NCBI GenBank assembly: GCA_964036045.1
Contig: OZ038381.1
Span: 138,042,306-138,106,305 of the forward strand
From: Eutreptiella sp. 'Long Island Sound 2002'
Lineage: Eukaryota; Euglenozoa; Euglenophyceae; Eutreptiales; Eutreptiaceae
DNA length: 64,000 bases
Direction of reading: 5' to 3'
Below, in pieces: positions 24,704 through 63,163 of this stretch (within the stretch, counting starts at the first letter, position 1; every line of letters starts with the position of its first letter). The translations under genes were made by a program, and so were the position numbers. The notes under the pieces were generated by a model, which did not search any database, was not told where the DNA came from, and was given only the letters and a program-made list of their open reading frames with translations.

Positions 24704-25046
24704 AGTAAGAAAAAGTGCTTTTCCAATGCCTTGAGGCATACTCTAGTTGTATTAGAGATGCATTAAGCACTCTAGCATTTTCATCTTAGTATTGGCCTAA
24801 CCAAAATGGGTGAAAACACATTTTGACCTATGGAACCAAACACTAAATCAGGATATGGAGTGGACCCCTTAATCCCTTATCAATGTGAGGCTATTCATCT
24901 TTTCCTGAGTTGACTAAGAAGTGACATATCTAGGGCAGAGCCTATGAATTTACCTATGTTTTCTCATGAATTCTTAGCTATCCTAGCCGTATGCACCCTA
25001 GGGGGCTGGGGCACCTCTTTTTGAGAGGTCCTGGGTTCAATTCCCG
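24704..25046 (+). repeat. tRNA-Lys-like SINE, copy 1
   Basis: Direct repeat of 56310-56652, no indels, about 18 differences in 343 bp by my count. The 3' part is tRNA-like: anticodon arm ACCTC-TTTTTGA-GAGGT at 25013-25029 (anticodon TTT, Lys), T arm CTGGG-TTCAATT-CCCGG and B box GGTTCAATTCC at 25034-25044. The D arm is degenerate. The tRNA part lies at the 3' end, and the C-rich element begins directly after it. Not a functional tRNA. Confidence 0.7.
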
Positions 25047-25935
25047 GCTAGGCTCAGGCCTCCACCGCATGACCCACAACCACTCACCGGAGGTCCGCGA
25101 GGTCACCGCAATCCGCCTCCAAGCCGCACAACGGGCCCGCAACACATGCCCGCGCTGGGTGCTCCACCAGACGGGCATGCCCACCAACATGAACACGCGC
25201 CTGTGGAACCACCTGCAGCTTCTCCTCCCATCCCCACACCACGCCATACTCACCAACCACACATGCCCAGAGGAAGGGCCTCGAACGGTCCTCTGCGGGG
25301 ACCTCCACCATCACCCCAAGGGCACCATCCGCACTAGAGACCTTGTCGGGGCCTCCATCACCGTAGTATACGTCACCCTCCCCCAAATGCGGGTATTGCA
25401 CCATAGCGGGGCACACCACACCCTCTTTCTACAGCTTCCCGAATGGCCTCAATACCGCCTCTTCCACCAGTACCTCACGCAGACGGCACGAGCAGCGGGA
25501 CACACTCTGCCGGGAAGCAAAGACATGCACACAACCTACCGAGAATTCACAAAGCAACACCCGCGACCCATCCCAGTGACACCGCCCTACGCACCCACCG
25601 GCTCAAAACACGAACCCGTCCCCCCGGTGATGCGCCCAGTCCCACCACTAACCCTACTACTGGCCCCGAATGAAGCCAAACCCACGCAGACCACCGTCAT
25701 CCACCAGGGGGCAAAATGGCGCATACCGAAACAACACATGACCGCCCGAGACCTACCACGGGTCCCCCATGACTCCCAGAGCATGCCACGCACATGTTGG
25801 GCCTGTGACCCCGAGGCACCAACCACACTGGCCCGTACTACACCTCATAGCACGCCACCACACCCACCCCACAACCCACCTACCACCACAGGCCTACGCA
25901 TGGGTAGCCCCATGGTTCCACCGCACCGACACTAA
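24991..25935 (+). pseudogene. C-rich retroelement coding remnant upstream of RNase H
   Basis: An open frame that starts inside the SINE and becomes C-rich from about 25050 (THNHSPEVREVTAIRLQAAQ). It contains a Cys-rich WACDPE segment at the end and overlaps the RNase H frame by a frame change near 25770-25900. No RT motif is found here, so the element is truncated or its RT lies elsewhere. Product not identified. Confidence 0.35.
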
Positions 25936-29551: not shown

Positions 29552-32503
29552 TGAAGCGGTACCCAGAACCCCATGGCTAGGTTACGGTCTCCGGTCCACT
29601 AACCCCATGCACGGAAGGGAAGACGCCCGTTGACGCTCCGTTCCGTGCCGTAAAGCCCCGCATCGGCAACCGATGCACCGCCAGCGGAGATTTGCATATC
29701 AGAATGTCAGGAATCAACAGGGTTTTATTGTCATATTGTTTCCGTCAAGTTTTACGCTTCCGTTCTGATATTCACTGTTTTGACTGCTGGCGGTTGGATC
29801 GCGACTTTACCGTAACCGCCAGTTTAACTGTAATTAATGGAAATTTTAACGCTATCCGCGACGAAGGCTCCAAAGTCGCCAGGAACTGCATTGATGCATC
29901 CGCAATTTTCATAATTAATACTCGCAACCTTAATCCGAATTTTTCAGGATGTCGAAATCGGATTTTCGACTTCGACATCCCCGCACTTGATTTGACCTCT
30001 TTCGAGTGGACCTACGTGCTTCCCTATGCACGAATCAACTTTCCTTTTCTCTTGCCCTCCATTTGTCTTAAAGATATGGGCAAAACAAAGTTGATTCGTG
30101 AGGCCACTTGTGAAGGTCATATCTCGTGTTGCTTGCGAGGAATTACGATAAGGAAACGTGGGATGTATTCACAATACTCCCGACGTAATTTAGGAAGCAT
30201 TATATGCCTTGCGTCTCCACACGTGCGCGCTAGTGTAATGGATCATGGTCAAGAGGGTAGAGTTTGCGTTATAACTCTTTGGCCATGACATTGCGTGCGT
30301 TAAGATAACTTTCGAGTGTAGCGCGCAAGTGTTGGTGTTGCATAGGAACTGTCCTTGAGTTCCTATGAGCGATTGACACAAAGTTATGCCCTTGGAGGGG
30401 CATGACATATCGTGGTGGGAGCTACCTTTTTGGGCAATATGTGGTATGTGCCATGTGTTGTGTTGCGTGCCCATTTGGCGGGTCCATTGCTCCAAACCGA
30501 ACCCGCCAATGGACCTCATATTGTGCAAGCCCCTTCTCCATACTCCCTACGATCAATTGCAAGCCTAACCTTCGTGAAGGGAAGCTTGTGTGGTGATCCC
30601 GAAGCGATGCCTTGGGAGCAAGGTGTGTGTTTTGCAATTTTCCATATTTTTATGTGCCCACTTGGGAAGTAGCGCTCGTAACCTTTCAAGGCGCCCCAAG
30701 TGGAGCACGTATGTGGGATCGAAGGTCATTGGTGTCAAGTCATTGTGTGTAGAAGGATTGGTTGGTTGCACGATCCAATCCGAAGATATTATAATATAAT
30801 TGTGCACCTTTCAATGCACTTTTGTGTGTCTTTGTGCCAATTTTGCCGTTTTTGGCCCGTCATGATGTCAAGTGGCGACCGTGTATCTCAACGTTGCGCT
30901 CAATTGACATCATGACCCAAGTATGTTATGAGGGTACATACTTCGGTGCCCAACATATCTTGGACCCGGCGAATAACTCCTCTTAGGCTTGGCATACCGT
31001 GGCCGCCATGTTGGCGATTTGGGACTATCCCAAATCATGGGCTCACTTGGCGACCCTGCCATTCCCAATACCGGAGGAGTTGGGCGACGCCCAAAAGATA
31101 TGTTGAACACATATGACTTGATACCAATCCTATGGCACACTCCGGTCCGAGTCGGGCATGTGCCTCATATGCCCCAACCATGAGTGTGCGCATTTTTGGC
31201 CATTTTGAGCAATTTTCCACTTTTGCTGCCCGCCGTGCACCATGTTCTAACCCTCGTGCACGCCGGACGCATGGACCAATGGACCATATATGACATGGGT
31301 GTTATGGGTAATGGTCCCCATGGTCCACACACCACGTGGGCGAAGCGGAGCCACCTTCGTTAAGGCGCTAGCCCAAAGTGAGTGTGGGCAATTTTGCAAT
31401 TTTGACATTTGTGGACCCAATTGGGATTGTCACCACGCCGAGTGGCATGGAGATCTTTGAGAGCCAAGGGCATGGGAGTCTCCATTGGACTCCCGGTGGA
31501 TCGCGTATGGGATGGCGGATCCGATCTCCAAGCCGGCGTGGAGATATACTATTGGGAGCACACCGAATTTTGGCTCATTTCAAGCAGCCAAAATGACCCC
31601 ATTTTGGGACCCCAATTTCCCCCTTCCGTGTGGTCAATTGGCGGCCCCATTTCTCTAAGCCCATAGGGAGCCCGGACCTAAATTCAAGTTGTACACTCAG
31701 ATATAAGTCCTAGGTCCTGCCTCCTACCCTGTGAGCCATTGGCCTTACCTTGGCCGGGCGGGCCACGCGTGGGAATGACGCCAATTTTGGTGATTTTGGC
31801 ATCATGGCCCCACTTGACTCATCTGTGTTGCCCTGATGCCGGGACCTCAGAGGGAACCAGGTTGGGTGAGGGCTCCAGGGAGTTTGTACTCGAAGGGCAT
31901 GGGGTCAGTTGCCTCGTCCCTACCTCTGGCGGGTCCGGACGAATGGTCAATTTTGGAGTTTTTCAAGCTAATATCAGTTTGGGCTGAAACAGCCCATTTT
32001 CAGCTACCAACTCCTAGGGGATAATGGCGGGGCCATATCTCTGGCTCAGAGAGGATTTGGGACCTGCCGTTAAGGGAGCATAGGGAGCCACTGTCGGTTG
32101 GCCTTGGAGCCCCTTGGTTTCCAGGAACTCGTTTGTGGCTAGACGGGACACCTCTCCTATTGGCAGGGTTTCAGGGTCCGGACTGAGCAGGGCATGGGTT
32201 GTGTTTGAGCCCCCGCCCCCACCAGCCACTGAGAGGGTCGGACCTGGGATTGGGATACAAGTTAGGACTGAGTGTCTATGGTCCTGTGATGCCCTTACCC
32301 CAGTCCAGTCTTAACCCCATGTGTACATATCCTGATGTGTTGCTGTACATACTTTCGTTCCCTCTTTGCAGAGTGGCAAGGATTCTGAAACGCTTTGTCA
32401 CATGACATGAGCGCATTGATGCCCCTGCGTGCGTAGTGCTTTGCCTGCCTGCTCACTTGCGCGTGTCCCGCAGCGTCCCGTGGCCGGCCCCCCACGGGAA
32501 CGC
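29552..32503 (+). repeat. 5' LTR
   Basis: Starts TGAAGCGGTACCC and matches 46650-49601 at a constant offset of 17098 bp with no indel seen. A 198-codon open stretch (29692-30288) is shared by both LTRs but starts with TTG and has no recognisable domain. Confidence 0.9.
30785..30802 (+). promoter_or_regulatory. Possible TATA element of the 5' LTR
   Basis: gatattataatataattg is the clearest TATA-like stretch in the LTR; the same bases occur in the 3' LTR at 47883-47900. No transcription start can be verified from sequence. Confidence 0.25.
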
Positions 32504-32945: not shown

Positions 32946-35900
32946 ATGGTGAATTGGCAAGAAGCGGGTAGGAGGTGGCCGCAGCCCAACCCCCATGTGG
33001 CGCGCCTGCTGCGCGGATTGCTGTGGGACCAGCAGTACCGCTACAGCAATCCCCAGTGCGAAGGCGGCATGCCCGGGAGCTTCGAGCTCCGTGAGGACAT
33101 GGGGGAGGACTGCCCGCGGGCAGTGGAGGAGTGGCTGCGGGCGGAAGGGTACGGGTACCGCTTCCGCCGCAAGCGCTGGAGGACGTGGACCCGGCCGGAC
33201 AGGCCCGGCGAAGGGCTGCGCCCCGACGGGATTGAGGAGGACGAGGACCCCAACGCCTACCCGTCGGGCGCCTCGATCAACGTCTCCCTGTGGGACGTGA
33301 TCGAGAAGAACTTCCCGGAACCGGGGAGCGAGCGCAGGCTGCAGGGCAGCAGCAGCGCGTCTCCGGCGACGGAGAAGCGGTCCGCCGGGGACAGGAATTG
33401 GGACCGGAGGTGGCGGGAGTACCAGGAGTCCCTGGCCGCCGAAGCCGCCCGAGGCGCCAAGGGCGGAACCCCAGCCCCCAGTCCCCAACGGGCCAATGGT
33501 GGTCATCACCCCGGCTCCACCACCCTTGGCGACTACATCAAAGTCGCCAGGCAGACCAAGGCCAAGCCCCGTCCGCTGCTCCTGAAGCCCCAGCAGGCCT
33601 CAGCAGGCCCCAGCAGCGACGTGGAGTCGGCCCACCGCGGGAAGATGCCCGCCGACCAGGCCAGCTCCAGCAGCAGCGCCGCTCCCGCCCAAAGGGACGT
33701 GGCGCGCGCCTGTGAGCGCATCTGCAGGGTGCCCTGCAACCTTCGGGTTGCCCGGCAACGGGCCACGCAGCAGAACGCTGCTGTGGAGGGCGCCGTCGGC
33801 ATCGCCCATGAGGAGGCCACCGAGTGGGGCAGAGGCATGGACTACCACGCCTCGAAAGTGGCAGCCATCGCGGCCGGTCTCACGGCTGCGGCCGCCCATG
33901 AGGCAGTGGCTGCCCGGATCAGGGCAACCGACGAGGAAGCCCGCCGGACGCAGGAGGCCATTGCCTGCAAGGAGGCCGAGGTGAAGGCGCTGGAAGAGGC
34001 GCTTGCCCAAGAGAGGGCAAAGAAGGAGGCGGAGGAAAGGGCCCACGCCGAAGCGACGGCTAAGGCCCAGGAGGACGCCGCCAAGAAGGAAGCCATCGAG
34101 GCCGCGCGACGGAAGGTCGCTGAGGAGAAGGCCAAGACGGAGGCGGAGCTGGCAGCGTTGAAAGCGCAGAAGGCGCGGCTGCAGCAGGCCCGGGAAGCCG
34201 AGGCGGCTCGTGCTCGGGGAGAAGCCGAAGCGCGAGCTGCCGCAACCACCGCTGCCGCAATGGAGGAGGCAGAGGCCAAACTCCGCCGCGAGACTCCCCC
34301 GGGAGGATCACGAGTGGAGACCCTTCGAAAGCTTTTCGAAGGGGACGCCTCCTCCAGGATGACGCTGGATGAGGCGGACACGGGCAGCAGTGGGAGCAGT
34401 GGCACCACCGCCCATCGACGGAGGAAGGGCAAGGGGAAGACCCCCGAGAGGCCGCGGAGGCCAGCGGGTGGACACCCCCACGACAGTGACCCCTTCTTCA
34501 CCGCCAGTGACGGGGATGAACGAGGCCGCCGACATCGCCAAGTGGTGGCTTGGACGGGCGGAGGCGGCGGAGACGTCCCCATGGAACCGGAAGGTGAGGA
34601 TGAGGATCTCCCTCCTCCCTACCGGAGCTCGGAGTCTTCCGTGACCGAGACGCCCAGGTGGGGCGACATGGACGAGGATGACGACATGGAATTCGGCATC
34701 ACGAAGAGGCGCCCATCCTCGGACCCACCGAGGCGACCCGGCGGAGACCCACCGGGACCCCCTGGCGGAGGACCATCAGGACCCCCTGGAAGACGCCCAC
34801 CGAGTGGACCCCCTGGAGGCGGACCACCGGGCGGGGGAGGACCCCCTGGACCGGGCGGACCCGGCGGAGGCCCTCCTGGAGGACCCCCTGGGGACCCCGA
34901 CGACCCACCAGGGAACGGCGACCCGGACACCACCTGGTGGTGGATTGTCTACCTCCGCAGGAGAGTCCAGTTGCTCGAGCTGGAGGTAGACACGGGCAAG
35001 GGCGAGATGGCTCGCATCTCCACGGTCCCCGCGCGCGCGCAGAAGGAGCTGGACATCGCCAGGGCCGAGACCAAGTCGCTGACCAACGTCGTCAGCGGCC
35101 TGCAGGAGAGGCTGGACGCGCTGGAAGCCCGTGGGAGCGTCGACAGCGACCACCCACCCCTGGAGTCTGGCTCGTCGGACGACGGCTGGGGACCCGGACC
35201 AGGTCCAGGCAGACCCCACGCCCCCGGCGGAGCCCCCAGGAGGCGCCCCAGCGCCAGTGCCCCCTCTCTCACCGCCCCCTCTCACCACAGCGCGGGCCGC
35301 CGCAACGAGCGCGTGCCGCCCGGCAGTGGTAGTGAGGAATGGCGTGATGAGTGGCTCAGCGCGGAGTACCGCAACCGCCGTGCTCCACCGCGGACGCCTG
35401 TACGCCCCCGACGCCCGGCACCAGCCCGGGTGCCAATCCCAATGGCTGGAGGACGTTATGGTGGACTCAGGGACGAGGTCCCCAGAGGAGACGTGGAGTG
35501 GGATGTCGGCGAAGGTGAGGACCTGGACCTGGACCTGGAGGAGTTCGACATCAGCCCGCCGCGTGGTGTACGACGGGACGCCGCTGAACGCAGCCGCCGG
35601 CGCCGTGATGAGGATGCATACATGGATGCAGTACGGCGTGAACATTTTGGTTCAGCGTACGTGGAGGAACCGCGGCGTAGCCACAGGGGTTCCATGGAGG
35701 AGATGGACGTGGCGGCCGTGGGAGTCCGTGGGCGAGGCCGATGGGAACCTCGGTCGACCTCGCGGCCGGCGTTCATGGTCTCTAAGGCCGCGGATGCCGC
35801 CGTGTGGGAAGACTTGAAGGACATCAAGCCCCCCATGTACGACGGCAACCCCCTCAACCTCGACCGCTTTTTTTTTTTGGAGAAGCTGGACAATTGGGGG

Positions 35901-37265
35901 CTGACCGTCACTGAAGACCTGCCTCCCGCTGATGCGGAGAAGTATGTCTTCAAACGGTTCAGGTACCGCCTGCCGGAAGTGCTCGGAGAGCTACACTTCA
36001 TGGCGACCAAGGAGGGGAAAATCAAGACCCTCAAGGAAGCCAAGAAGTGGCTCAACGAGCAGGAGCGGGTGGACGCTCCGCAGGTGGCGGCCAAGCGCTG
36101 GAAGTCCATCAAGCTTGAGCATGATGGACGGGAGATCCGCCTACGAGAGTGGCGAGACTTCCGAGGGAAATACACCCTCTTCCGCCGCAACGTGGAGGAT
36201 TGGAACGAGGGTGACGAGCAGGCTCGCCTGCTCTCCATGCTGCCGGAAGCATGGATCAAGAGGGTCACCAAGGAGGAATCCAAGAGGGCCAAGTCCAACC
36301 ACACGGTCAAGATGATGCTCCCCAAGGAGTATCATACGAACGTGGTGGCTTGGGCGAAGAAGAACGTGGCCCGGGATGTCAAACGGCACTCCCTGCGGAC
36401 TGCTCTTCTCATCACCGTCTCGGGCGATCGCGAGAAGACCGCGATGTGGCGCCTTGACGATTGTGAGTTGAGCGGCCAGACCATCCGTCTGCAGCCCATC
36501 CCGGCGCGGATGAGCTGCGACGAGATCCTGGAGTGGGTTGGCGAGGAAGTACTCAAGGAGTACCGAAACCTCCACCACACCCGCGGGTTGAGGCCCGGCG
36601 ACCGCGACGTCAACTACGTTGGCGAGGGACCTGGCGGGGAAGATGCCATGGACCCAGCGGGAGCCGGCGGCGATGAGACTCTCGTCGACGATGACGACGA
36701 CGATGAGCCCGCCGAAGTGGCCGTTTGCGCCTTCGTGGCCAAGAACCTGAACGCGGGGAGCAAACCGGGAAACTGGAAGCCCCTGCAGCAGGGTTGGAGG
36801 AAGCAGGAGAAGAGGGACCCTCGCCGTATTGGCGACCCTCCGCTGTCCTTTGGGGAGTTCATACGAGCTCACCCTCAGGGCTGTTTCGTGTGTTATGGGA
36901 GGAAGCGAGGCTTCAACCATGACCACCGAACATGCCCCATCCACAAGGCCGACACGGACGCTTACAAGAAGGCGCACGGGTCGAAGAAGCGTGCGCCCGC
37001 GGGTATCCGGGAAGCCAAGATGGAGGTGGACAAGGACGAGCTGGCCAAGCTGATGTCGTTGGTGGGGACCGAATTGGCCAAGGAGATCCAGGAGATCAAG
37101 CGGAACTGGGTCCCCAGGTCGGACAACAAGAACAAGGAGAACAACCAGAATGACCAGAACAAGGACAAGGACAAGAACAAGGGTAAGAAAGGGGGAAGGA
37201 AGAAGGGCATCAACGACGTTGAGGCCGAGGAGAACACCCCCTCTTCCACAACCGACGCCCCCTAG
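32946..37265 (+). CDS. gag: Gag polyprotein of the chromovirus
   Basis: Structural protein forming the particle and binding RNA; 1439 aa from the first ATG in good context (gccATGg); the frame opens at GTG 32904 after TGA. It is far longer than usual Ty3/gypsy Gags. Order: folded N-terminus; Ala/Glu/Lys coiled coil (about residues 310-450); PPPY at 556-559 (34611-34622), like a retroviral late-domain motif; PPG-rich linker (about 594-660); a second helical segment; a disordered Arg/Pro stretch; a capsid-like region from about residue 960 (ITVSGDREKTAMWRLDD near its end); and a zinc knuckle with unusual CX2CX8HX4C spacing starting at Cys1313 (36882). Lys-rich tail. It ends at UAG 37263-37265 with pol continuing in frame. 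An 11-T run at 35868-35878 lies in the coding frame. Confidence 0.85.
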   Translation: MVNWQEAGRRWPQPNPHVARLLRGLLWDQQYRYSNPQCEGGMPGSFELREDMGEDCPRAVEEWLRAEGYGYRFRRKRWRTWTRPDRPGEGLRPDGIEEDEDPNAYPSGASINVSLWDVIEKNFPEPGSERRLQGSSSASPATEKRSAGDRNWDRRWREYQESLAAEAARGAKGGTPAPSPQRANGGHHPGSTTLGDYIKVARQTKAKPRPLLLKPQQASAGPSSDVESAHRGKMPADQASSSSSAAPAQRDVARACERICRVPCNLRVARQRATQQNAAVEGAVGIAHEEATEWGRGMDYHASKVAAIAAGLTAAAAHEAVAARIRATDEEARRTQEAIACKEAEVKALEEALAQERAKKEAEERAHAEATAKAQEDAAKKEAIEAARRKVAEEKAKTEAELAALKAQKARLQQAREAEAARARGEAEARAAATTAAAMEEAEAKLRRETPPGGSRVETLRKLFEGDASSRMTLDEADTGSSGSSGTTAHRRRKGKGKTPERPRRPAGGHPHDSDPFFTASDGDERGRRHRQVVAWTGGGGGDVPMEPEGEDEDLPPPYRSSESSVTETPRWGDMDEDDDMEFGITKRRPSSDPPRRPGGDPPGPPGGGPSGPPGRRPPSGPPGGGPPGGGGPPGPGGPGGGPPGGPPGDPDDPPGNGDPDTTWWWIVYLRRRVQLLELEVDTGKGEMARISTVPARAQKELDIARAETKSLTNVVSGLQERLDALEARGSVDSDHPPLESGSSDDGWGPGPGPGRPHAPGGAPRRRPSASAPSLTAPSHHSAGRRNERVPPGSGSEEWRDEWLSAEYRNRRAPPRTPVRPRRPAPARVPIPMAGGRYGGLRDEVPRGDVEWDVGEGEDLDLDLEEFDISPPRGVRRDAAERSRRRRDEDAYMDAVRREHFGSAYVEEPRRSHRGSMEEMDVAAVGVRGRGRWEPRSTSRPAFMVSKAADAAVWEDLKDIKPPMYDGNPLNLDRFFFLEKLDNWGLTVTEDLPPADAEKYVFKRFRYRLPEVLGELHFMATKEGKIKTLKEAKKWLNEQERVDAPQVAAKRWKSIKLEHDGREIRLREWRDFRGKYTLFRRNVEDWNEGDEQARLLSMLPEAWIKRVTKEESKRAKSNHTVKMMLPKEYHTNVVAWAKKNVARDVKRHSLRTALLITVSGDREKTAMWRLDDCELSGQTIRLQPIPARMSCDEILEWVGEEVLKEYRNLHHTRGLRPGDRDVNYVGEGPGGEDAMDPAGAGGDETLVDDDDDDEPAEVAVCAFVAKNLNAGSKPGNWKPLQQGWRKQEKRDPRRIGDPPLSFGEFIRAHPQGCFVCYGRKRGFNHDHRTCPIHKADTDAYKKAHGSKKRAPAGIREAKMEVDKDELAKLMSLVGTELAKEIQEIKRNWVPRSDNKNKENNQNDQNKDKDKNKGKKGGRKKGINDVEAEENTPSSTTDAP

Positions 37266-37310
37266 CGGAGCCCCTGCAGCCAAGGGCCCCAGCTAGGGCG
37301 GTCGCAGGAT
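37263..37310 (+). promoter_or_regulatory. Candidate stop-codon readthrough site at the gag-pol junction
   Basis: TAG-CGG-AGC-CCC. No other stop occurs in this frame until 42246. Pol has no in-frame ATG until after the protease active site. A weak stem is possible, CCTGC (37273-37277) with GCAGG (37304-37308). The decayed relative at 63163-63152 has TAG-AGG-AGC-CCC at the same boundary. Confidence 0.6.
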
Positions 37311-40300
37311 GGTGACGTGGGAAGCGCCGAACCATCCCAGTCGGGAGTCGATAAGCACAAGGGGACTGCCGCGGGCGGAAGGCCCGGTCCGGCGCCCAGT
37401 TGCGGAGGCGGGGTGAGGGCAAGTGAAGGCACGAACCCTTGCACCCGTCCGTCCTTCGCGACCAAGAATGTGTTTGATGTACTACAGGATCTATCCGAGA
37501 GTATCGGAGGATCACCCGGACCGCAGCTGGATGCTGCAGATGGGCAGCCTGAGCCCATTGTCCACGACCTGCACCAGTCGCTTGTGGAGCTTCTGGAACG
37601 GCCGGAGATCCTGAGTTTGCACGCCGTGCGCCGTGTCGGTCGTGAGCGGCAATTGCATCTTAAGGTCCGTGCCTTATGCGGGGAAGTGGAAAAGGTTTTC
37701 GACGTGTTGGTCGACACGGGAGCTCAAGTCAGCTTGGTCAAGGCTGGCCTACTTCCACCAGAGTGTCTGACCGACAGTCGGAAACCTGTCAGGCTGAAGG
37801 TGGCGAACGGCCAGTACATGGTGGGAGGCACGAAGGAAGCGGCCATTGGGCTGCAGTTCGTGAACCATCGTGAGCTGAGCCGCCCAGACCTCGGCAAGGA
37901 AATCCTCCTGCACGGTCGCTTCTACGAGGCCGAGATGGACTGGGACATGATCGTTGGGTACGACTTCATGATGGAGACGGACTCCGGCGTCCTCCCAGCC
38001 CAGGCCTCCATGACCCTGTACCAGGACGACCAGCTCTCGTGGCTTTCGTCACCTGAGCACCATGTGGAATGCCAATGGATCCACCCCGAACGCAATCAGC
38101 TCGAAGTGGCCGCGCTCGACACTGAGCCCACTGGGCCAGCGAACCAGGAGTACGGCGTAAGGCCGGAAGTGGCGAACCGAGTGGTCGCGGACCTGGGAGC
38201 GTCGGATCTGGCCCTGGATGCGTTCTCTTCAGGAACCTCCGCCCATCTGCGGGTGTGTGAGAAGTACTGGAGCGCACAGGACTCCGCGTGGAAGAAGCAC
38301 TGGGGTCCGCATCAGGGTTTGATGTGGATCCATTGCCCCCGTTGGGACATTCCAAGAGCGATAGCGAAGATTCGCAAGGACCGCTCCAAGGCAGTGCTGG
38401 TTGTTCCTATGGGATGCACCGAGGAGGAAAGTACCCGACATTGGGTAGCCTCATTGACCAACATGACCTTAAACAAGGTCGTCCTACCGGCTGGAGAGAG
38501 TGTCTATCAGGACGCTAAGGGACAGCCCATGCCACCCCAGAGATGGCCAACGGAATTCCACTATGTGGATGGGGGCCTTGATCAGGCCGACACCACGGAC
38601 TTCGTGTGTGTCAACCGTATCATAGCGGAGCCTTGGAGGCAATGCTTTGCGGTTCCCCCCGTTGACATCGAACAATCGGAATCGGAAGAGCCCCTCACTG
38701 AAGAGGAGTGGGATCTGGTTCAGGGGTATATGGATCAGCCCTTTCACGACTGGGGAAACCAGCGTGAGGGCAAAGGCCAGGACAAAGCCTGGTGGGAAGT
38801 GGACTCAATCGTCTCCGGTTCCTATGACGGGAATACCTTCGTACAGAGGGTGCTGGATCACATGTCCAGCCAAGACGAGCCGCCTGGCGGTAACCCACCC
38901 ACCTACGGCGATCTGTTCCGAGGCAAGACCAGAGATGGCCCTTTGGGCCACCTGGGAAGACCACCTGAGCCGAAAGCGAGCGGGGTCGCTACCCCTCAAG
39001 TAAGCTCCGTGGTTCAAGTGCCCGGAAAAGCCAAGGCGGAGTCCGATGACTGCCCCAAGATCCAGGCGTTGAGGGCCAGGCTGAAGCAGAAGTATGGCGA
39101 GACCTTCTTCAGCGGAAAACCTGTGTTCCCCCCACCGGTGCGTGGACCGTATGGCGAGGCCAAGATACGACTGAAGCAGGACCCCCGTGTGTATCGGCAC
39201 CGGGAGTTTGCCCTGAGGGGCGAGAGGAAAGAAGCTATGGAGAAGATCCTCCGTGACTTCATCCAGAGAGGCTGGCTCGAGCCGTGCCACTCCGAATGGG
39301 CCTCTCCCTGCTTCGTCGTCCCCAAGAAGGTTGCCGGTGAGTGGCGGCTCGTGGTCGACTACCGCGGCCTGAACGCCCAAAGGCAGCACGACAGCTATAC
39401 GCTGCCCCTCATTGAGGACATGCTGCAAAAGCAACACCGGCGGAGGATCTTCACGGTGATTGACCTGAAACATGGTTATCATCAGATGCCTCTCGCCGAG
39501 GAGTCCCGTGCCTGCACAGCCATGAGCACTCCACTTGGACCTCTCCAGTGGAAGGTGATGCCCATGGGCGTTACCAACGGCAATGCGGCTTTTCAGCGGA
39601 TGCTGGAGAACCTGCTTGAGCCGGTGCGTGACTGTGCGGACCCCTTCGTGGACGACGTGATCATCGCGTCCGGGGACCCCAGTATGAGCTACGAGGAGCT
39701 CCTGGAGGCACATGAAAGGGACGTCACTCGAGTGCTGGACCTTCTGGTTCGGCACAAACTCACGGGCAGCAGTGACAAGGCCACCATTGCGGTAAGCGAG
39801 GTGGTCTTCGCCGGCCACGTAGTCGGGAACGGGCAGCGAAAGCCCATACCTGGCAAGGTGGCTGCGATTGAGCACTGGGAAAAGCCCAAGACGGTCTCTG
39901 AGCTACGGGCGTACCTGGGGTTCTGCAATTACTACTCGGGGTATATCAAAATGTATGCCGAGTATGCAGCCCCCATGACGACCATGCTCAAGGGCAACCG
40001 AGAGGAGACCAAGAAGGGGCCCAAGAAGGCTCTGGTCTGGACAGCTGAGTCCGACCGTGCCTTTGAGGGGATGAAGCAGGCGCTGCTATCCGCAGTGGGT
40101 CTGCACCTCGTGGATCCCGACCGAGGGTTCGTCCTGCGCACCGACGCTTCCGACTACGCCATTGGCGCTGTGTTGGAGCAAGTGCTTGACGACGGGAGGC
40201 ACGTGCCCGTGGCCTTCTGGAGCCGAGTCCTGGCGGAAGGCCAGAGACGGACGTGGACGCCCCGTGAAAAGGAGGCGTATGCCATCGTCATGGCTCTCAG

Positions 40301-42248
40301 GAAATGGGCTGGGTACATAGCCCTCCATCCCGTCACCGTCTGCACCGACCATCAGAGTCTGCAGTCGTGGCACAAGGAGCACGTGGACACCCCCTCAGGT
40401 CCCGCCTCCCGACGGGCAAGATGGCATGAGACCTTGGCCAAGTTCGATCTCACGGTTATGTATATTCCTGGAAAGGATAACACCGTGGCGGACTGTCTCA
40501 GTAGCTGGGCCTATCCCGCCAGCAAGGGCATGACGGACATCTCTGCCCATGGCGATGAGGCTGAGACCGCTGAAGCCAAGAGGATCATCGAGATGGAGCG
40601 CCTGATGGAGGAGGAGGGTGCAAAATGCTTCGTCGTCATGGCCGCGGATGCCTCCCTCGCAACGAGGGTGAGCCCAGCGGTCAGAGTACTCGCCCCTGAG
40701 GGAGCCGAGTCCGACAAGCACCTCTTCCCGGAGTCTTGCCTCCAGGAAGACTGGACCGACGATTACGCCAAGTCTGAGGCCTTTGCGGCCGAGTATAGGG
40801 CTGTGACCGACCCTGACGACGGGCAGAAGTGGCCAAAGGGGCTGACTGAGGAAGATGGCAAGCTCTACCGGAATGGTAAGCTGCTAGTACCAGAGTCCCG
40901 GGTGCTCGAGCTGTGTGAAGCTTGGCACCACCACATGCTGCACCCAGGGGTCAAGAAGCAAGCTCTTGACATGCAGCGTCGGTTCGAGATCGACCATATC
41001 GTTCTCTACACCGCCATCAAGAAGGTCAGGAAGGGTTGCTCGGTCTGTCAGGCCTGCAATCCCGACAACCGGAACGTCAAGGGGGAACCCCAATGGACCC
41101 CGGTTCCTGACCAGCCCATGGAGAGCGTGGCCATGGATGTCTTCTCCATGCCCGAAGTGCACATTGGCAAGGAGACCTTTGACTGTGTGGTTCTCTGTGT
41201 GGACCGCCACAGCGGCTACGTTGTAGCCGTTCCGGCACGCAAAAAGTGGTTGCTTGCCAGAGAAGTGGCAGTCATGATGATTCGTCATTGGCTGACCGTC
41301 TTTGACATTCCCCGCACCATTTGCAGTGACCGAGGGCCCCAGTTTACTGGTGGCTGGTTCAAGGCTACGTGTTCCCTCATGGGAATACGTCATGCCAAGA
41401 GCGTTGCCTATGTCAGCCGGTCTAACGGCCGTGCTGAAGTGGCTGGACGGCAGCTGTTCGAGAAGCTGCGCAAGATCTACATCACCAATCCACGTCGGAA
41501 CTGGTTTGAGGAGATGTGGCCTGCTCTGAAGGCCCATCATGACACCCCCACGCCGGGCGGTTTGTCCCCTCACCAGATTCTGTTCGGCAGGGACCCCCTG
41601 GGTCGGGGACTTCCCTTGTCTGGTGATGGCATGGCTATGGATGCCAAGGAATTCTTCGCGCGGCAAGAGCAAACGGCGCGGGACATCCGCCAGCAGCTCG
41701 AGAAGGAGCATGCCGAGCGTCAGAAGTCCGCCCCAAGCTCAACAGCGCAGAAGTTCAGGGTGGGAGACCCGGTGTGGGTGATCAGACCCCGCCCTATGGG
41801 CACCCAGCGCACCAAGACCTGGTTCACACCCGGCGACGTGGTCCGCAGGATTGGTGAGGACACCTACGGCATCAAGGTGGGTCACGGACAGTTCCGGGAG
41901 CGCCACGAGAGTCAACTCCGTGTGCGGGAACCCGACCTCCGTGGCCAACATGTGTCCCTGAGCTATGCCGCGCATGAGGCCGATTCGGACGACGACTACG
42001 CTGAGCAGGACGACTATACAGTCGAGAAGATCCTTGCTCAGCGTCCGAAGGCCTCGGCACCCGGAGGTCTGGAGTTCAAGGTTCGTTGGCGAGGCTATGG
42101 GCCGTCCCACGACACCTGGGAACCCGTCTCCTCATTCGTGCCGCGGGTCAATACTCCCTTCATGGAGTACATCCGGAAGCACAAGACCAAGATCCAGGTT
42201 TCGGACTTGGCAGCACTCACCCGGGCGATTGCAGCCAGGGGTGCCTGA
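37266..42248 (+). CDS. pol: Pol polyprotein: protease, extra module, RT, RNase H, integrase, chromodomain
   Basis: 1660 codons in the gag frame after UAG. Aspartic protease VDTGAQVSLV (Asp codon 37713). Extra module at about 38200-38495 (LALDAFSS... KAVLVVPMG... NKVVLP). RT with DYRGLN, LKHGYHQMP and catalytic FVDDVII (39645-39665). RNase H with RTDASDYAIGAVLEQ (40141) and TPREKEAYAIV. Integrase zinc region H…H…CSVCQAC (about 40920-41055) and catalytic triad D 41136-41138, D 41328-41330, E 41436-41438, with exactly 35 residues between the last two. C-terminal chromodomain YTVEKIL … KVRWRGYGPSHDTWEP (about 42015-42190), expected to target insertion by reading histone marks. It ends TGA 42246-42248. 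All key residues are present. It is presumably made as a Gag-Pol fusion by readthrough. Confidence 0.9.
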   Translation, partial: RSPCSQGPQLGRSQDGDVGSAEPSQSGVDKHKGTAAGGRPGPAPSCGGGVRASEGTNPCTRPSFATKNVFDVLQDLSESIGGSPGPQLDAADGQPEPIVHDLHQSLVELLERPEILSLHAVRRVGRERQLHLKVRALCGEVEKVFDVLVDTGAQVSLVKAGLLPPECLTDSRKPVRLKVANGQYMVGGTKEAAIGLQFVNHRELSRPDLGKEILLHGRFYEAEMDWDMIVGYDFMMETDSGVLPAQASMTLYQDDQLSWLSSPEHHVECQWIHPERNQLEVAALDTEPTGPANQEYGVRPEVANRVVADLGASDLALDAFSSGTSAHLRVCEKYWSAQDSAWKKHWGPHQGLMWIHCPRWDIPRAIAKIRKDRSKAVLVVPMGCTEEESTRHWVASLTNMTLNKVVLPAGESVYQDAKGQPMPPQRWPTEFHYVDGGLDQADTTDFVCVNRIIAEPWRQCFAVPPVDIEQSESEEPLTEEEWDLVQGYMDQPFHDWGNQREGKGQDKAWWEVDSIVSGSYDGNTFVQRVLDHMSSQDEPPGGNPPTYGDLFRGKTRDGPLGHLGRPPEPKASGVATPQVSSVVQVPGKAKAESDDCPKIQALRARLKQKYGETFFSGKPVFPPPVRGPYGEAKIRLKQDPRVYRHREFALRGERKEAMEKILRDFIQRGWLEPCHSEWASPCFVVPKKVAGEWRLVVDYRGLNAQRQHDSYTLPLIEDMLQKQHRRRIFTVIDLKHGYHQMPLAEESRACTAMSTPLGPLQWKVMPMGVTNGNAAFQRMLENLLEPVRDCADPFVDDVIIASGDPSMSYEELLEAHERDVTRVLDLLVRHKLTGSSDKATIAVSEVVFAGHVVGNGQRKPIPGKVAAIEHWEKPKTVSELRAYLGFCNYYSGYIKMYAEYAAPMTTMLKGNREETKKGPKKALVWTAESDRAFEGMKQALLSAVGLHLVDPDRGFVLRTDASDYAIGAVLEQVLDDGRHVPVAFWSRVLAEGQRRTWTPREKEAYAIVMALRKWAGYIALHPVTVCTDHQSLQSWHKEHVDTPSGPASRRARWHETLAKFDLTVMYIPGKDNTVADCLSSWAYPASKGMTDISAHGDEAETAEAKRIIEMERLMEEEGAKCFVVMAADASLATRVSPAVRVLAPEGAESDKHLFPESCLQEDWTDDYAKSEAFAAEYRAVTDPDDGQKWPKGLTEEDGKLYRNGKLLVPESRVLELCEAWHHHMLHPGVKKQALDMQRRFEIDHIVLYTAIKKVRKGCSVCQACNPDNRNVKGEPQWTPVPDQPMESVAMDVFSMPEVHIGKETFDCVVLCVDRHSGYVVAVPARKKWLLAREVAVMMIRHWLTVFDIPRTICSDRGPQFTGGWFKATCSLMGIRHAKSVAYVSRSNGRAEVAGRQLFEKLRKIYITNPRRNWFEEMWPALKAHHDTPTPGGLSPHQILFGRDPLGRGLPLSGDGMAMDAKEFFARQEQTARDIRQQLEKEHAERQKSAPSSTAQKFRVGDPVWVIRPRPMGTQRTKTWFTPGDVVRRIGEDTYGIKVGHGQFRERHESQLRVREPDLRGQHVSLSYAAHEADSDDDYAEQDDYTVEKILAQRPKASAPGGLEFKVRWRGYGPSHDTWEPVSSFVPRVNTPFMEYIRKHKTKIQVSDLAALTRAIAARGA

Positions 42249-42611: not shown

Positions 42612-43560
42612 TGAAGCATTTTCGGCGGGGGTGATGTCCGTGCGTCCACAGAAAAATTGGAAAAATTGAAAATCCTTCAACCCATCCCCCCAACCTCTCC
42701 AAGTACTACATGAAGTCTATTCCAAACTTCGATTCCATTGGAGTTGCGTAAATGGTCTTGGAATCCTTGCTCACCCCATGGGGAGCGTCCGCGAACACAA
42801 TCTGGCGTCTATGAACAAAGAGATGGTATATGTAAAATAAATATACAAAATAAATGCGTTGACATGTACAATGTATGAGTAACAATTCTATACTATAAAA
42901 TAGCATAAAAAGGAAGACGAAATGAAGGCGACGGCGTCGCCGCCATCAGAAAATCTGACGGCTACGAGGCGTCACCATCAGGATCTCCACTGAGATCCTG
43001 CCCAGACTGGGCCAACCAGTGGTTTCTGGGCGAAAAACAACAAAATAAAGTGATTTTTGAGTCAAAAACACTCATTTTGCGCGTCTCCCCCCAACGCGTC
43101 GCGTAGCCGACACGACGCGTTTCTGTGGCAATTCAACCTACATATGAAAAGGCCCACTGTTGGGCTACGCCATAGGCGTCTGGGCGATTCCTGGAATCGC
43201 CTCAGCATTTTTTGAAAAATGCGTGAACGCGCTACTTTTCGCAAAAATGGACCTTCGCGGAACGCCGCGAAAAAGGTCACGCTACAATCTTTTATTTCTA
43301 AAAACGATAAAACAATAATAAAATTGCCTAAAATCTTTAGAAATCGAGAGTTAAATTCTCGATCTGGAGCTGCGTCGCGCAGGCGACGACTGTCGTCGCC
43401 AGTCCAGAAAAGACGTAAAATTACGATTTCTGGGGTATTTTACAGAAATCCCACAGAAATCAGGATGCCGTAGCATCAACAGGAAAATTCCTGATCTGGC
43501 CTGGCGAAGAGCGCCACAGGCTGGGCAGCGGGTATGGGTGAAGCACCCCATACCGCTTCA
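42612..43560. repeat. Nested element, left LTR-like repeat
   Basis: Near-identical to 44557-45505 at offset 1945. Rich in short hairpins such as gcgacggcgtcgcc and ggtatggggtgctt-type inverted bases near its end. Confidence 0.8.
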
Positions 43561-44556
43561 CCCCCCTCCTTAGAAGCCTTGCCTATATCCAAAGGAAGGC
43601 AAGGCCAAGGAGGCGCTCTGACCCCTGCAGTGCCCTGGTTTCAACTCTGATTCATCAGGACAGTGGGGGGGGGGGGCTTCGTGAGTAATTTTCATAGGGG
43701 GGAGCACCACACACATGTAAAAAAAAAATTTTTTTTTTTTTTTTTGATCTTGAAATATTCATAGGGCAATTGCCCCTCAGGCGACCACACTGGTCCCTGG
43801 CACTCCTCGTAGCCTCTGGTGACCAAACCAGGGGCGCTGCAGGGCCTTCCGCCCTGACTGATGGCGCTTAGGCGCACATATTGGCCCTTTTTCTCCATGG
43901 GCATGGAAATCAATAATTCAATAAATTCGGAAAATTCGGAAAAAACTTATTTAGGGTCAAACCCAAGGCAAGGCCTTCCACCGCGCCTGAATTTAGGGCC
44001 ATTTCCTGCCCATGGCGACGAATACCTCGTGCCTTTTAGGGTCGATTCCCAACCCAAGGTGACGAATGAACGCACCTGATTTGGGGGATTTAGGGTCATT
44101 TCCTACCCAAGGCGCCCCACGCCTATTTAGGAAGGGACCTCCCGGAGGGTCAACCAACCCAAGGTGACGAATTAACGCGCCTGATTTGGTTACTGGTGGA
44201 CGCGGGGCGCTTTCCGCGCGACCCGCTGTCGTTGCTCTTGGGATTTGTCATCCACTCCACTTGTCAAGCTGCTGCAGGGTCCAGATTTCCTGAAGACCTC
44301 TGCTGGGATCGTCGTCGTCGTCGCAGGAGCTCCTGGAGCTGATCTCAGGGCTGTCGTCGTCGCTGCTGTTGCCTTGGGGGCCAGTCTTGGTTCAGGCGTC
44401 CCTTCTTGCACTGTATTTCCACCAGTGCAATACCTTTGGCTGCAGTCTGTTGCGCTGCGGGAGTCGTCGAAAACCAGGCAGCAGGACACCACTCAACGTC
44501 GTGGGAGCCATCGACAGGTCCGCCAGTGAACCACGCGGACAGCGGCAAGACCATTT

Positions 44557-45505
44557 TGAAGCATTTTCGGCGGGGGTGATGTCCGTGCGTCCACAGAAAA
44601 ATTGGAAAAATTGAAAATCCTTCAACCCATCACCCCAACCTCTCCAAGTACTACATGAAGTCTATTCCAAACTTCGATTCCATTGGAGTTGCGTAAATGG
44701 TCTTGGAATCCTTGCTCACCCCATGGGGAGCGTCCGCGGACACAATCTGGCGTCTATGAACAAAGAGATGGTATATGTAAAATAAATATGCAAAATAAAT
44801 GCGTTGACATGTACAATGTATGAGTAACAATTCTATACTATAAAATAGCATAAAAAGGAAGACGAAATGAAGGCGACGGCGTCGCCGCCATCAGAAAATC
44901 TGACGGCTACGAGGCGTCGCCATCAGGATCTCCACTCAGATCCTGCCCAAACTGGGCCAACCAGTGGTTTCTGGGCGAAAAACAACAAAATAAAGTGATT
45001 TTTGAGTCAAAAACACTCATTTTGCGCGTCTCCCCCCAACGCGTTGCGTAGCCGACACGACTCATTTCTGTGGCAATTCAACCTACATATGAAAAGGCCC
45101 ACTGTTGGGCTACGCCATAGGCGTCTGGGCGATTCCTGGAATCGCCTCAGCATTTTTTGAAAAATGCGTGAACGCGCTACTTTTCGCAAAAATGGACCTT
45201 CGCGGAACGCCGCGAAAAAGGTCACGCTATAATCTTTTATTTCTAAAAACGATAAAACAATAATAAAATTGCCTAAAATCTTTAGAAATCGAGAGTTAAA
45301 TTCTCGATCTGGAGCTGCGTCGCGCAGGCGACGACTGTCGTCGCCAGTCCAGAAAAGACGTAAAATTACGATTTCTGGGGTATTTTACAGAAATCCCACA
45401 GAAATCAGGATGCCGTAGCATCAACAGGAAAATTCCTGATCTGGCCTGGCGAAGAGCGCCACAGGCTGGGCAGCGGGTATGGGTGAAGCACCCCATACCG
45501 GTTCA
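44557..45505. repeat. Nested element, right LTR-like repeat
   Basis: Differs from the left repeat at a handful of positions (for example acaatctggc preceded by gcgga instead of gcgaa; ggttca instead of gcttca at the end). Confidence 0.8.
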
Positions 45506-46649: not shown

Positions 46650-49601
46650 TGAAGCGGTACCCAGAACCCCATGGCTAGGTTACGGTCTCCGGTCCACTAA
46701 CCCCATGCACGGAAGGGAAGACGCCCGTTGACGCTCCGTTCCGTGCCGTAAAGCCCCGCATCGGCAACCGATGCACCGCCAGCGGAGATTTGCATATCAG
46801 AATGTCAGGAATCAACAGGGTTTTATTGTCATATTGTTTCCGTCAAGTTTTACGCTTCCGTTCTGATATTCACTGTTTTGACTGCTGGCGGTTGGATCGC
46901 GACTTTACCGTAACCGCCAGTTTAACTGTAATTAATGGAAATTTTAACGCTATCCGCGACGAAGGCTCCAAAGTCGCCAGGAACTGCATTGATGCATCCG
47001 CAATTTTCATAATTAATACTCGCAACCTTAATCCGAATTTTTCAGGATGTCGAAATCGGATTTTCGACTTCGACATCCCCGCACTTGATTTGACCTCTTT
47101 CGAGTGGACCTACGTGCTTCCCTATGCACGAATCAACTTTCCTTTTCTCTTGCCCTCCATTTGTCTTAAAGATATGGGCAAAACAAAGTTGATTCGTGAG
47201 GCCACTTGTGAAGGTCATATCTCGTGTTGCTTGCGAGGAATTACGATAAGGAAACGTGGGATGTATTCACAATACTCCCGACGTAATTTAGGAAGCATTA
47301 TATGCCTTGCGTCTCCACACGTGCGCGCTAGTGTAATGGATCATGGTCAAGAGGGTAGAGTTTGCGTTATAACTCTTTGGCCATGACATTGCGTGCGTTA
47401 AGATAACTTTCGAGTGTAGCGCGCAAGTGTTGGTGTTGCATAGGAACTGTCCTTGAGTTCCTATGAGCGATTGACACAAAGTTATGCCCTTGGAGGGGCA
47501 TGACATATCGTGGTGGGAGCTACCTTTTTGGGCAATATGTGGTATGTGCCATGTGTTGTGTTGCGTGCCCATTTGGCGGGTCCATTGCTCCAAACCGAAC
47601 CCGCCAATGGACCTCATATTGTGCAAGCGCCTTCTCCATACTCCCTACGATCAATTGCAAGCCTAACTTTCGTGAAGGGAAGCTTGTGTGGTGATCCCGA
47701 AGCGATGCGTTGGGAGCAAGGTGTGTGTTTTGCAATTTTCCATATTTTTTTGTGCCCACTTGGGAAGTAGCGCTCGTAACCTTTCAAGGCGCCCCAAGTG
47801 GAGCACGTATGTGGGATCGAAGGTCATTGGTGTCAAGTCATTGTGTGTAGAAGGATTGGTTGGTTGCACGATCCAATCCGAAGATATTATAATATAATTG
47901 TGCACCTTTCAATGCACTTTTGTGTGTCTTTGTGCCAATTTTGCCGTTTTTGGCCCGTCATGATGTCAAGTGGCGACCGTGTATCTCAACGTTGCGCTCA
48001 ATTGACATCATGACCCAAGTATGTTATGAGGGTACATACTTCGGTGCCCAACATATCTTGGACCCGGCGAATAACTCCTCTTAGGCTTGGCATACCGTGG
48101 CCGCCATGTTGGCGATTTGGGACTATCCCAAATCATGGGCTCACTTGGCGACCCTGCCATTCCGGATACCGGAGGAGTTGGGCGACGCCCAAAAGATATG
48201 TTGGACACATATGACTTGATACCAATCCTATGGCACACTCCGGTCCGAGTCGGGCATGTGCCTCATATGCCCCAACCATGAGTGTGCGCATTTTTGGCCA
48301 TTTTGAGCAATTTTCCACTTTTGCTGCCCGCCGTGCACCATGTTCTAACCCTCGTGCACGCCGGACGCATGGACCAATGGACCATATATGACATGGGTGT
48401 TATGGGTAATGGTCCCCATGGTCCACACACCACGTGGGCGAAGCGGAGCCACCTTCGTTAAGGCGCTAGCCCAAAGTGAGTGTGGGCAATTTTGCAATTT
48501 TGACATTTGTGGACCCAATTGGGATCGTCACCACGCCGAGTGGCATGGAGGTCTTTGAGAGCCAAGGGCATGGAAGTCTCCATTGGACTCCCGGTGGATC
48601 GCGTATGGGATGGCAGATCCGATCTCCAAGCCGGCGTGGAGATATACTATTGGGAGCACACCGAATTTTGGCTCATTTCAAGCAGCCAAAATGACCCCAT
48701 TTTGGGACCCCAATTTCCCCCTTCCGTGTGGTCAATTGGCGGCCCCATTTCTCTAAGCCCATAGGGAGCCCGGACCTAAATCCAAGTTGTACACTCAGAT
48801 ATAAGTCCTAGGTCCTGCCTCCTACCCTGTGAGCCATTGGCCTTACCTTGGCCGGGCGGGCCACGCGTGGGAATGACGCCAATTTTGGTGATTTTGGCAT
48901 CATGGCCCCACTTGACTCATCCGTGTTGCCCTGATGCCGGGACCTCAGAGGGAACCAGGTTGGGTGAGGGCTCCAGGGAGTTTGTACTCGAAGGGCATGG
49001 GGTCAGTTGCCTCGTCCCTACCTCTGGCGGGTCCGGACGAATGGTCAATTTTGGAGTTTTTCAAGCTAATATCAGTTTGGGCTGAAACAGCCCATTTTCA
49101 GCTACCAACTCCTAGGGGATAATGGCGGGGCCATATCTCTGGCTCAGAGAGGAGTTGGGACCTGCCATTAAGGGAGCATAGGGAGCCACTGTCAGTTGGC
49201 CTTGGAGCTCCTTGGTTCCCCGGAACTGGCCTGTGGCTAGGCGGGACACCTCTCCTATTGGCAGGGTTTCAGGGTCCGGACTGAGCAGGGCATGGGTTGT
49301 GTTTGAGCCCCCGCCCCCACCAGCCACTGAGAGGGTCGGACCTGGGATTGGGATACAAGTTAGGACTGAGTGTCTATGGTCCTGTGATGCCCTTATGCCA
49401 GTCCAGTCTTAACCCCATGTGTACATATCCTGATGTGTTGCTGTACATACTTTCGTTCCCTCTTTGCAGAGTGGCAAGGATTCTGAAACGCTTTGTCACA
49501 TGACATGAGCGCATTGATGCCCCTGTGAGCGTAGTGCTTTGCCTGCCTGCTCACTTGCGCGTGTCCCGCAGCGTCCCGTGGCCGGCCCCCCACGGGAACG
49601 C
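46650..49601 (+). repeat. 3' LTR
   Basis: Starts TGAAGCGGTACCC after the polypurine tract. Mismatches with the 5' LTR are scattered except for a cluster at 49190-49245. It diverges from the 5' copy at 49602 (aacgcaacacc against aacgcgtcaaa). Confidence 0.9.
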
Positions 49602-56309: not shown

Positions 56310-56652
56310 AGTAAGAAAAAGTGCTTTTCCAATGCCTTGAGGCATACTCTAGTTGTATTAGAGATGCATTAAGCAGTGTAGCATTTTTATCTTAGTATTG
56401 GCCTAACCAAAATGGGTGAAAACATATTCTGACCTATGGAACCAAACACTAAATCAGGATATGGAGTGGACCCCTTAATCCCCTATCAACGTGAGGCTAT
56501 TCATCTTTTCCTGAGTTGTCTGAGAACTGACATATGCAGGGCAGAGCCTATGAATTTATCTATGTTTTCTCATGAATTCTTAGCTACCCTAGTGGTATGC
56601 ACCCTAGTGGGCTGGGGCACCTCTTTTTCAGAGGTCCTGGGTTCAATTCCCG
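56310..56652 (+). repeat. tRNA-Lys-like SINE, copy 2
   Basis: Same sequence as 24704-25046 at a constant 31606-bp offset. Anticodon arm ACCTC-TTTTTCA-GAGGT at 56619-56635, B box GGTTCAATTCC at 56640-56650. Here position 37 is C, unlike a real tRNA. Confidence 0.7.
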
Positions 56653-58171
56653 GTCAGCCTAGCTAAGTAGGAAGATCCCATGTGACATGGCAGTGACCTC
56701 ATCGCCACAAGCCATGCCACCTCAGCATATATGGGACCCAAAACAAAGGGTGCACATCTCCTGAGATGGCACTATGGAGATTGAGTGACTATGGGGCAGT
56801 TTTGCCAACTCTTTTCCCAAACAATTTCGACTATCTTTGTGAATATGCGATCCGATTTGCCTTGAGTTGCAGTTACTGTAAATATTCTTACATCTTTCAC
56901 TGTTTACACTGCAGCCCTTCATGCTTTGATCCTGATTCTCTTCTACTTGCTTATCTTTGGCTTGGGTTATCCTGGATTGGTTGTATTTCAGCAAATTAAA
57001 CATTTTCCTCATCAGAAACAAGCAGCAGGAAACCCTACACCAGCAGCAAGCAGCAGGAGAGGCACAACAAACACACAGTGTTGAAATCACTATAAAACTT
57101 TCTAAACTTCCTCAGAACGCATGATCAATTTTGGGCACATTGCAAGTGAAGCCATCACGAGCCCACAAAATGTAACATTGAGAAGAACAAATGCGTTGTT
57201 GGACGAAGGTGAAATGCACCAAGTCCATGCTATCACACGGAACATTTTCATGCAAATAGAAACAAACGTCCGAATCATATATTTTGTAACGTGTTTGCTT
57301 GCTCACTCAGCTTTGAACCACCGTCTCAAATCTCCGTACATTTTCTTGAGCGTATGCTAAGTGGGGACAACTATGTGAAATGGCGAAAACAATGTCTTCC
57401 AGCGAAAAAAAAACCCATCCCAACCATAGTGTTTTTGCCTGCCCCCCAATATGTCGAAATGTTTCTCTTTTTTTTCTTTTCCTAATAAAAGACAGAGTTC
57501 TCAACAAAGACCCCATGCCGTAGGGCATGCAGACCAAGGCCCCGGCCTCTTAGACAGTAGACCGAGGTCGTGGCTCACAACAGGCTCACATCCTTCTTTT
57601 TGAGCGCCCCCTTTTCAAACATACCTCCAAATCCCTCATCGTTTATGGGCCACCCTGGTCATTGAGAACATGGCTGTATTTGTACTTCCTCGAGCGAAGT
57701 TGTGTTCTACCCTAATTGGATTTCTCCCAAAAGAATATTCTAATGGGGTGGCCCTTGGGACAGGTGCAGTGCTCCAGCGTGCGGGTCAAAACCGTCAGAG
57801 CAATTTCAATCTGCATCCCGAGAGATCAACTCATTTACTCAGTAATGATGTAGTACGCCGCGTTGCAAAATGCTTTATGCATGATGCAGGTGAGTTTATG
57901 TGCGAGTCTACTGCAAAAGTGACTACCCACTGAAAAAACCCGTCAGTGCACCTTAACCTGGTTGCACAAAAGCTGCGCTCCATGGCAGCCGAGCCTACAA
58001 AAATAAAAACAATGATAAAAAGTCGCCTTGGGCGAGGAACGTCTATCCATCCCTAAGCAGACATGTACATGGGCAAAACAAAGTCAGTCCGAATATCTAA
58101 AATTTTGTATGCAATGCCAGGAAGAGTTCACTGCTACAACCTTATGCTTTTGTAGCCTGAGTATCTCTTCT
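56653..58171. other. Spacer before chromovirus 2
   Basis: No gene recognised. It should hold the 3' LTR of the minus-strand element that starts at 58172, but without the partner LTR in the window I cannot place its ends. A minus-strand purine stretch at 57607-57616 is one possible polypurine tract. Confidence 0.4.
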
Positions 58172-63160: not shown

Positions 63161-63163
63161 CTA
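63122..63163 (-). promoter_or_regulatory. Conserved gag-pol boundary UAG, possible readthrough signal
   Basis: TAG-AGG-AGC-CCC, the counterpart of 37263-37274. Downstream a CCCAC-GGGA-GTGGG hairpin (63153-63140) could sit inside an outer GAGGAG/CTCCTC pairing. The structures are seen by eye only. Confidence 0.5.

Follow-up and report, generated by a model that had tools for sequence, protein, structure and literature searches.

A nearly invariant in-frame UAG between gag and pol of a Ty3/gypsy chromovirus points to programmed readthrough

Introduction

How can a retrotransposon produce Pol when gag and pol share one reading frame and a single UAG stands between them? This question is raised by a long terminal repeat (LTR) element in a 64,000-nucleotide stretch of the genome of Eutreptiella sp. 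'Long Island Sound 2002' (hereafter the window). An earlier note on this DNA proposed programmed readthrough of the UAG, and set it against the frameshifting or fused open reading frame (ORF) that Ty3/gypsy elements usually employ. The contrast is softer than it was drawn. The chromoviruses Tj1 of Schizosaccharomyces japonicus, Tcry1, and Tosmo1-3 have an in-frame UGA between gag and pol, and removal of the Tj1 stop abolished transposition (PMC10085805, PMC4600332). Chromoviruses of choanoflagellates are described as using one frame or frameshifting (PMC6875170). Tca2, a Ty1/copia element of Candida albicans, carries gag and pol in a single frame interrupted by one UGA and makes Pol from the gag-pol RNA; when its junction was placed in a yeast reporter, no readthrough was seen (PMC2194720). 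General background was drawn from PMC5009743 and PMC7175516. In the literature searched, which was thin on subscription journals, no case of a UAG at the gag-pol boundary of a Ty3/gypsy element was recognised. In this study, the gag-pol junction was analysed in the window, in copies of the same family (family 1) throughout the genome, and in a diverged second family (family 2).

Materials and methods

The 2.28-Gb assembly was searched on both strands with 29 flanking bases of the junction fixed and the stop codon position left open. The search was also run with the same flanks and TAG fixed. For the analysis of selection, single-base codon changes were counted in 58 family-1 copies. Changes found in at least 3 copies were classed as shared, and rarer changes as private.

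Results and discussion

Structure of the element and its reading frame

The features of the two elements are listed in Table 1. Judged from its LTR pair and the order of its pol domains, the outer element of the window was classed as a young Ty3/gypsy chromovirus with a chromodomain. Pol scored above the Pfam cut-offs for RVT_1, RNase H, and the chromodomain (PF00385, residues 1584-1620 of 1660; 35.9 bits, cut-off 25.1). The integrase model rve matched at 27.3 bits, under its cut-off of 32.6 (E 4.6e-6), and the matches to the H2C2 and protease models were also under cut-off. The protease motif DTGA lies at 37713. Among solved sequences, the top match of pol was the Gag-Pol of Ty3 (E 3.5e-70). 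A clean target-site duplication was not found around the outer element; the only candidate, 4 matching bases, is offset from where the LTR begins. The gag gave no match in a Pfam search at E 0.1, and a CxxC...H...C-like knuckle was noticed by eye close to its 3' end.

Table 1. Coordinates in the window of the features of the outer element and of the second element.
Feature	Position	Strand	Remarks
5' LTR	29552-32503	+	2952 bp; 99.1% identity with 46650-49601; first bases TG
gag ORF	32946-37265	+	1439 codons and TAG
gag/pol TAG	37263-37265	+	Sole in-frame stop from 32946 to the pol TGA
pol ORF	37266-42248	+	1660 codons and TGA; protease, reverse transcriptase, RNase H, integrase, chromodomain
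GGAGCCCC	37267-37274	+	Eight bases after TAG-N, identical in the second family
Codons 52-147 past the stop	37419-37706	+	Upstream of the first in-frame ATG (37818); protein-level selection
3' LTR	46650-49601	+	2952 bp; purine-rich AAGGAGGGGGG upstream
Second element, further pol	59408-62434	-	RVT_1 and RNase H matches
Second element, decayed	62435-64000	-	gag end, TAG 63163-63161, pol start with protease

Two side observations concern the proteins themselves. Gag is unusually long, at 1439 codons (32946-37265), and contains extended charged and Pro/Gly-rich stretches. Pol residues 316-399 (38211-38462), between the protease and the reverse transcriptase, gave a weak match to the Dam adenine-methyltransferase family (E 0.02, below cut-off). 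By eye, relatives such as P0041 have NPPW at a site where the window's pol has HCPRW, and catalysis of this Dam-like domain may have been lost in the latter.

The earlier note had described the frame as open save for the TAG at 37263-37265, and the counts bear this out. A single frame runs from 32946 to the TGA at 42246-42248; its 1439 gag and 1660 pol codons (3099) include no TAG, TAA, or TGA, and the two remaining forward frames are interrupted by 65 and 100 stops over 32946-42248. It is equally correct that pol has its first in-frame ATG at 37818, downstream of the protease motif DTGA at 37713.

UAG is a stop codon in the host

The meaning of UAG in the host was read from the Hsp70 family, and UAG is a genuine stop. 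There were 81 Hsp70 matches, the best 25 of which had no internal stop; over all 81, internal stops were TAG in 4, TGA in 4, and TAA in 1. Nine Hsp70 gene ends were read, and these were TAG in four, TAA in three, and TGA in two. The paralogues L109 and L116 both finish in EEPPKQ, which is followed by TAG in the former and TGA in the latter. A reassignment of UAG in this genome, against which the earlier note had advised checking, is contradicted by these genes. If UAG were a sense codon, there would be no stop at all between gag and pol. The TGA that terminates pol, and the TGA that the earlier note gave as the end of the cyclin gene, would agree with this. However, UAG closes four of the nine Hsp70 genes, and gag and pol together hold 112 CAR codons and not one TAG, so that we give a sense UAG practically no credence. 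On the minus strand of the window, an ORF with a SAM domain (15727-16875; 31.7 bits) terminates in TAG, which is consistent with UAG as a stop.

Conservation of the stop in two families

With the codon left open, 2061 + 2097 = 4158 places were found; with TAG fixed, 2035 + 2072 = 4107 of these (98.8%) were recovered and 51 (1.2%) had no TAG. Some of these places are less than full-length copies, and the requirement for exact flanks biases the count towards young ones. Among the 100 places listed of the 4158, a hand count gave TAG in 99 and TAC in 1. The main objection that the earlier note had foreseen, a sense codon in most intact copies, is not borne out by the 4107 of 4158. TAG was also present in 28/28 near-identical copies examined (of 41 matches listed), all picked by near-identity to a TAG-bearing query, and in 20 of them the frame held no other stop over about 1030 codons. 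For 30 loci taken from the open-codon search, TAG was found in 30/30 and was the sole in-frame stop within 330 codons in 13. When 20 further short stretches are included, all fetched family-1 stretches carried TAG (78/78).

A similar picture was obtained from proteins. Ninety gag-like proteins were found, and 26 matched the last 76 residues of Gag. These 26 are the gag cluster representatives that extend to the junction, and 22/26 terminate at the stop. The remaining four continue past it, with Leu in P0086, Gln in P0009, Cys in P0017, and Trp in P0061; all four are single-member clusters, and these sense-codon losses look like independent decay. Searches for relatives by pattern yielded nothing that was confirmed: in viral contigs, one search had no match and another had 9 pattern matches with zero confirmed, and in genome contigs zero of 49 pattern matches were confirmed.

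The second element of the window belongs to family 2. As the earlier note had reported, its TAG at 63163-63161 stands at the same boundary and is followed by bases that are alike at 8 of 9 positions. This element also carries a TAA (63457-63455) and a TGA (62437-62435). Because it is decayed, its TAG alone is weak evidence. The evidence from the second family is strong because TAG was present in 30/30 of the family-2 stretches that were cut out (29 and L045; 30 of 40 matches listed), most of which contain additional in-frame stops. Over residues 1-700, the window's Pol shares 37-40% identity with the family-2 proteins P0024-P0031. Within this family, P0113 terminates at the stop, and a single copy, P0028, carries Gln at that position. 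UAG is thus nearly invariant at the gag-pol junction in two diverged families.

An inactivating stop could also become common by hitch-hiking, if the TAG copies were non-autonomous and were spread by the Pol of rare sense-codon copies. The 51 places without TAG, one of which was read as TAC, are what such an account would draw on. It is nevertheless very improbable. The stop is common to two families that are only 37-40% alike over Pol residues 1-700, the TAG copies are otherwise open in 20/28, and the four sense variants among the 26 gag representatives differ from one another and are single-member, as expected of decay.

Selection on pol upstream of the first AUG

In codons 52-147 past the stop, the ratio of synonymous to non-synonymous changes in the 58 family-1 copies was 20:1 for shared changes versus 32:50 for private changes (Fisher p=2.6e-6). 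The corresponding ratios were 58:14 versus 135:240 from the protease onward and 49:51 versus 132:304 in gag (p=6e-4); these p-values are rough, as the copies share ancestry. The substitution pattern indicates that family-1 protein encoded above any in-frame AUG is under purifying selection in active lineages, and it fits a Pol translated from upstream of any such AUG. Codons 1-51 showed no clear selection, either in the 58 copies (4:5 versus 11:26, p=0.45) or in 78 copies (6:5 versus 16:39). In family 2, few changes were shared and there was no synonymous excess (codons 52-147: 2 synonymous, 3 non-synonymous).

Because codons 1-51 show no clear selection, a start or a splice junction before codon 52 is possible. 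Splicing would remove a TAG-containing intron from part of the RNA, and the spliced mRNA would encode an unbroken Gag-Pol. GT introns do occur in host genes (the cyclin), and a single good donor candidate, GTAAGA, is present 80 nt upstream of the stop. However, the acceptor candidates that stay in frame with this donor, over a span of 160 nt, finish in AAG, TAG, or GAG, and an obvious pyrimidine tract is missing from them. An intron would also leave unexplained why a stop, and TAG specifically, was kept with N-GGAGCCCC in two families; we consider it unlikely.

Alternatively, Pol could begin separately at a non-AUG codon past the stop, by reinitiation, internal entry, or a shorter mRNA. The first candidate, GTG at 37317, is flanked by G at both -3 and +4, and database gene callers start the Pol clusters P0004 and P0005 there. 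That choice is no evidence, because bacterial-style gene callers accept GTG. Six out-of-frame ATGs lie between the stop and the protease, and the conserved stop and its context would again be left unexplained. The dinoflagellate spliced leader (21 bases), which would be one way to obtain a separate mRNA, was absent from the 2.28-Gb assembly as an exact match and from the window at up to 3 mismatches. A dinoflagellate host, which the style of the element had suggested, was rejected on the same result. A separate non-AUG start is distinctly improbable, and both splicing and non-AUG starts are weaker explanations than readthrough.

Sequence context and RNA structure

The junction reads CCC-TAG-CGG in family 1 and GTC-TAG-AGG in family 2. 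The base after TAG is therefore C in the one and A in the other, and the following eight bases, GGAGCCCC, are identical. When all codon-aligned pairs of the same codon in the two elements were compared, at least 8 of the 9 next bases matched in 21 of 82870 pairs (2.5e-4).

The earlier suggestion that downstream stems assist readthrough found no support in the window's family. Folds of the junction, compared with shuffled sequences, gave z scores of +0.49, +0.28, and -1.37 in family 1, with no supported stem; the family-2 values were -0.01 and -2.69. Within either family, the copies resemble one another too closely for an analysis of covariation. Short hairpins after the stop were no better than shuffles in either family (z -0.49 in family 1, -0.34 in family 2). 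A 150-nt fold paired the stop codon itself within a stem, one that would already be unwound by a ribosome positioned on that codon. A candidate hairpin common to both families just past the stop was rejected, as it was alike in outline, different in register, and not above shuffles. Rfam gave zero matches over the whole window at gathering thresholds.

Readthrough signals have been grouped into types I to III (PMC3542737). Type I is UAG-CARYYA; type II is UGA, or rarely UAA, before CGG or CUA, with an extended stem-loop about 8 nt downstream; and type III is UAG followed by a 3' G or purine-rich octanucleotide and by a pseudoknot or stem-loop (PMC3542737). By its sequence, the junction fits none of these classes fully. 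Instead of the type I hexamer, CGGAGC and AGGAGC follow the stop. As in type II, CGG follows the stop in family 1, but the stop is UAG rather than UGA, family 2 has AGG, and no family-1 stem exceeded shuffles. The gamma- and epsilonretroviruses of type III likewise have UAG between gag and pol, with both in one frame. They differ in the 3' G or purine octanucleotide and the structure, whereas the element here is a chromovirus with no supported family-1 structure, C or A follows the stop, and the octanucleotide finishes with CCC or CCCC. The UAG-R of epsilonretroviruses would fit family 2.

Comparison with known elements and proposed mechanism

The Tj1 group likewise closes gag with an in-frame stop, continues into pol without a change of frame, and has a chromodomain, and Tj1 Pol is without an AUG. 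The element here has one stop, the same frame, and no Pol AUG before the protease. It differs in the stop and its context (UAG-CGG/AGG versus the UGA-CU of the fission-yeast elements), in its host, and in a gag of 1439 codons; the GAA-TGA-CT of that group was found at neither family's stop. Tca2 has the same arrangement of one stop in a single frame, and it differs in its UGA and its superfamily. The strategy was known from chromoviruses with an in-frame UGA; the additions here, which are well supported, are a UAG in that place, the conservation of N-GGAGCCCC after it, and the lineage.

Programmed readthrough of the UAG is the best explanation of these data and probably joins Gag to Pol. The conservation of TAG, the code of the Hsp70 genes, and the selection on codons 52-147 all support this reading, which the earlier note had put forward. 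It is further favoured by the precedent of Tj1, whose stop is needed for transposition. Most ribosomes would finish Gag at the UAG. A minority would decode the UAG as an amino acid, presumably supplied by an ordinary host tRNA, and continue in frame to give Gag-Pol. The low frequency of readthrough would then set the ratio of Gag to Pol. We infer that the conserved N-GGAGCCCC past the stop takes part in the bypass. More tentatively, and with rather more doubt than confidence, we propose that this lineage evolved its own UAG signal, in which N-GGAGCCCC would be a short stimulator outside types I-III, maybe stem-free, that was spread through thousands of insertions.

If readthrough is correct, the short list of Ty3/gypsy elements in which an in-frame stop separates gag from pol gains a UAG case, and the strategy extends beyond retroviruses and yeasts to another host. 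The 4158 places with the same junction, together with the diverged second family, make the sequence rules of the candidate recoding signal testable in reporters.

Other features of the window

Between the end of pol and the 3' LTR lies an inner LTR element (42612-45505) with LTRs of 949 bp that are 98.8% alike, TG...CA ends, and a 4-base duplication, ATGC. Because about 1 kb separates its LTRs, this element is probably non-autonomous. A 344-bp direct repeat (24704-25047 and 56310-56653; 94.8% alike) flanks the whole outer element. A host cyclin gene with introns occupies 19660-20735 on the minus strand, with Cyclin_N and Cyclin_C in separate frames, and a further exon was noticed by eye near 21361.
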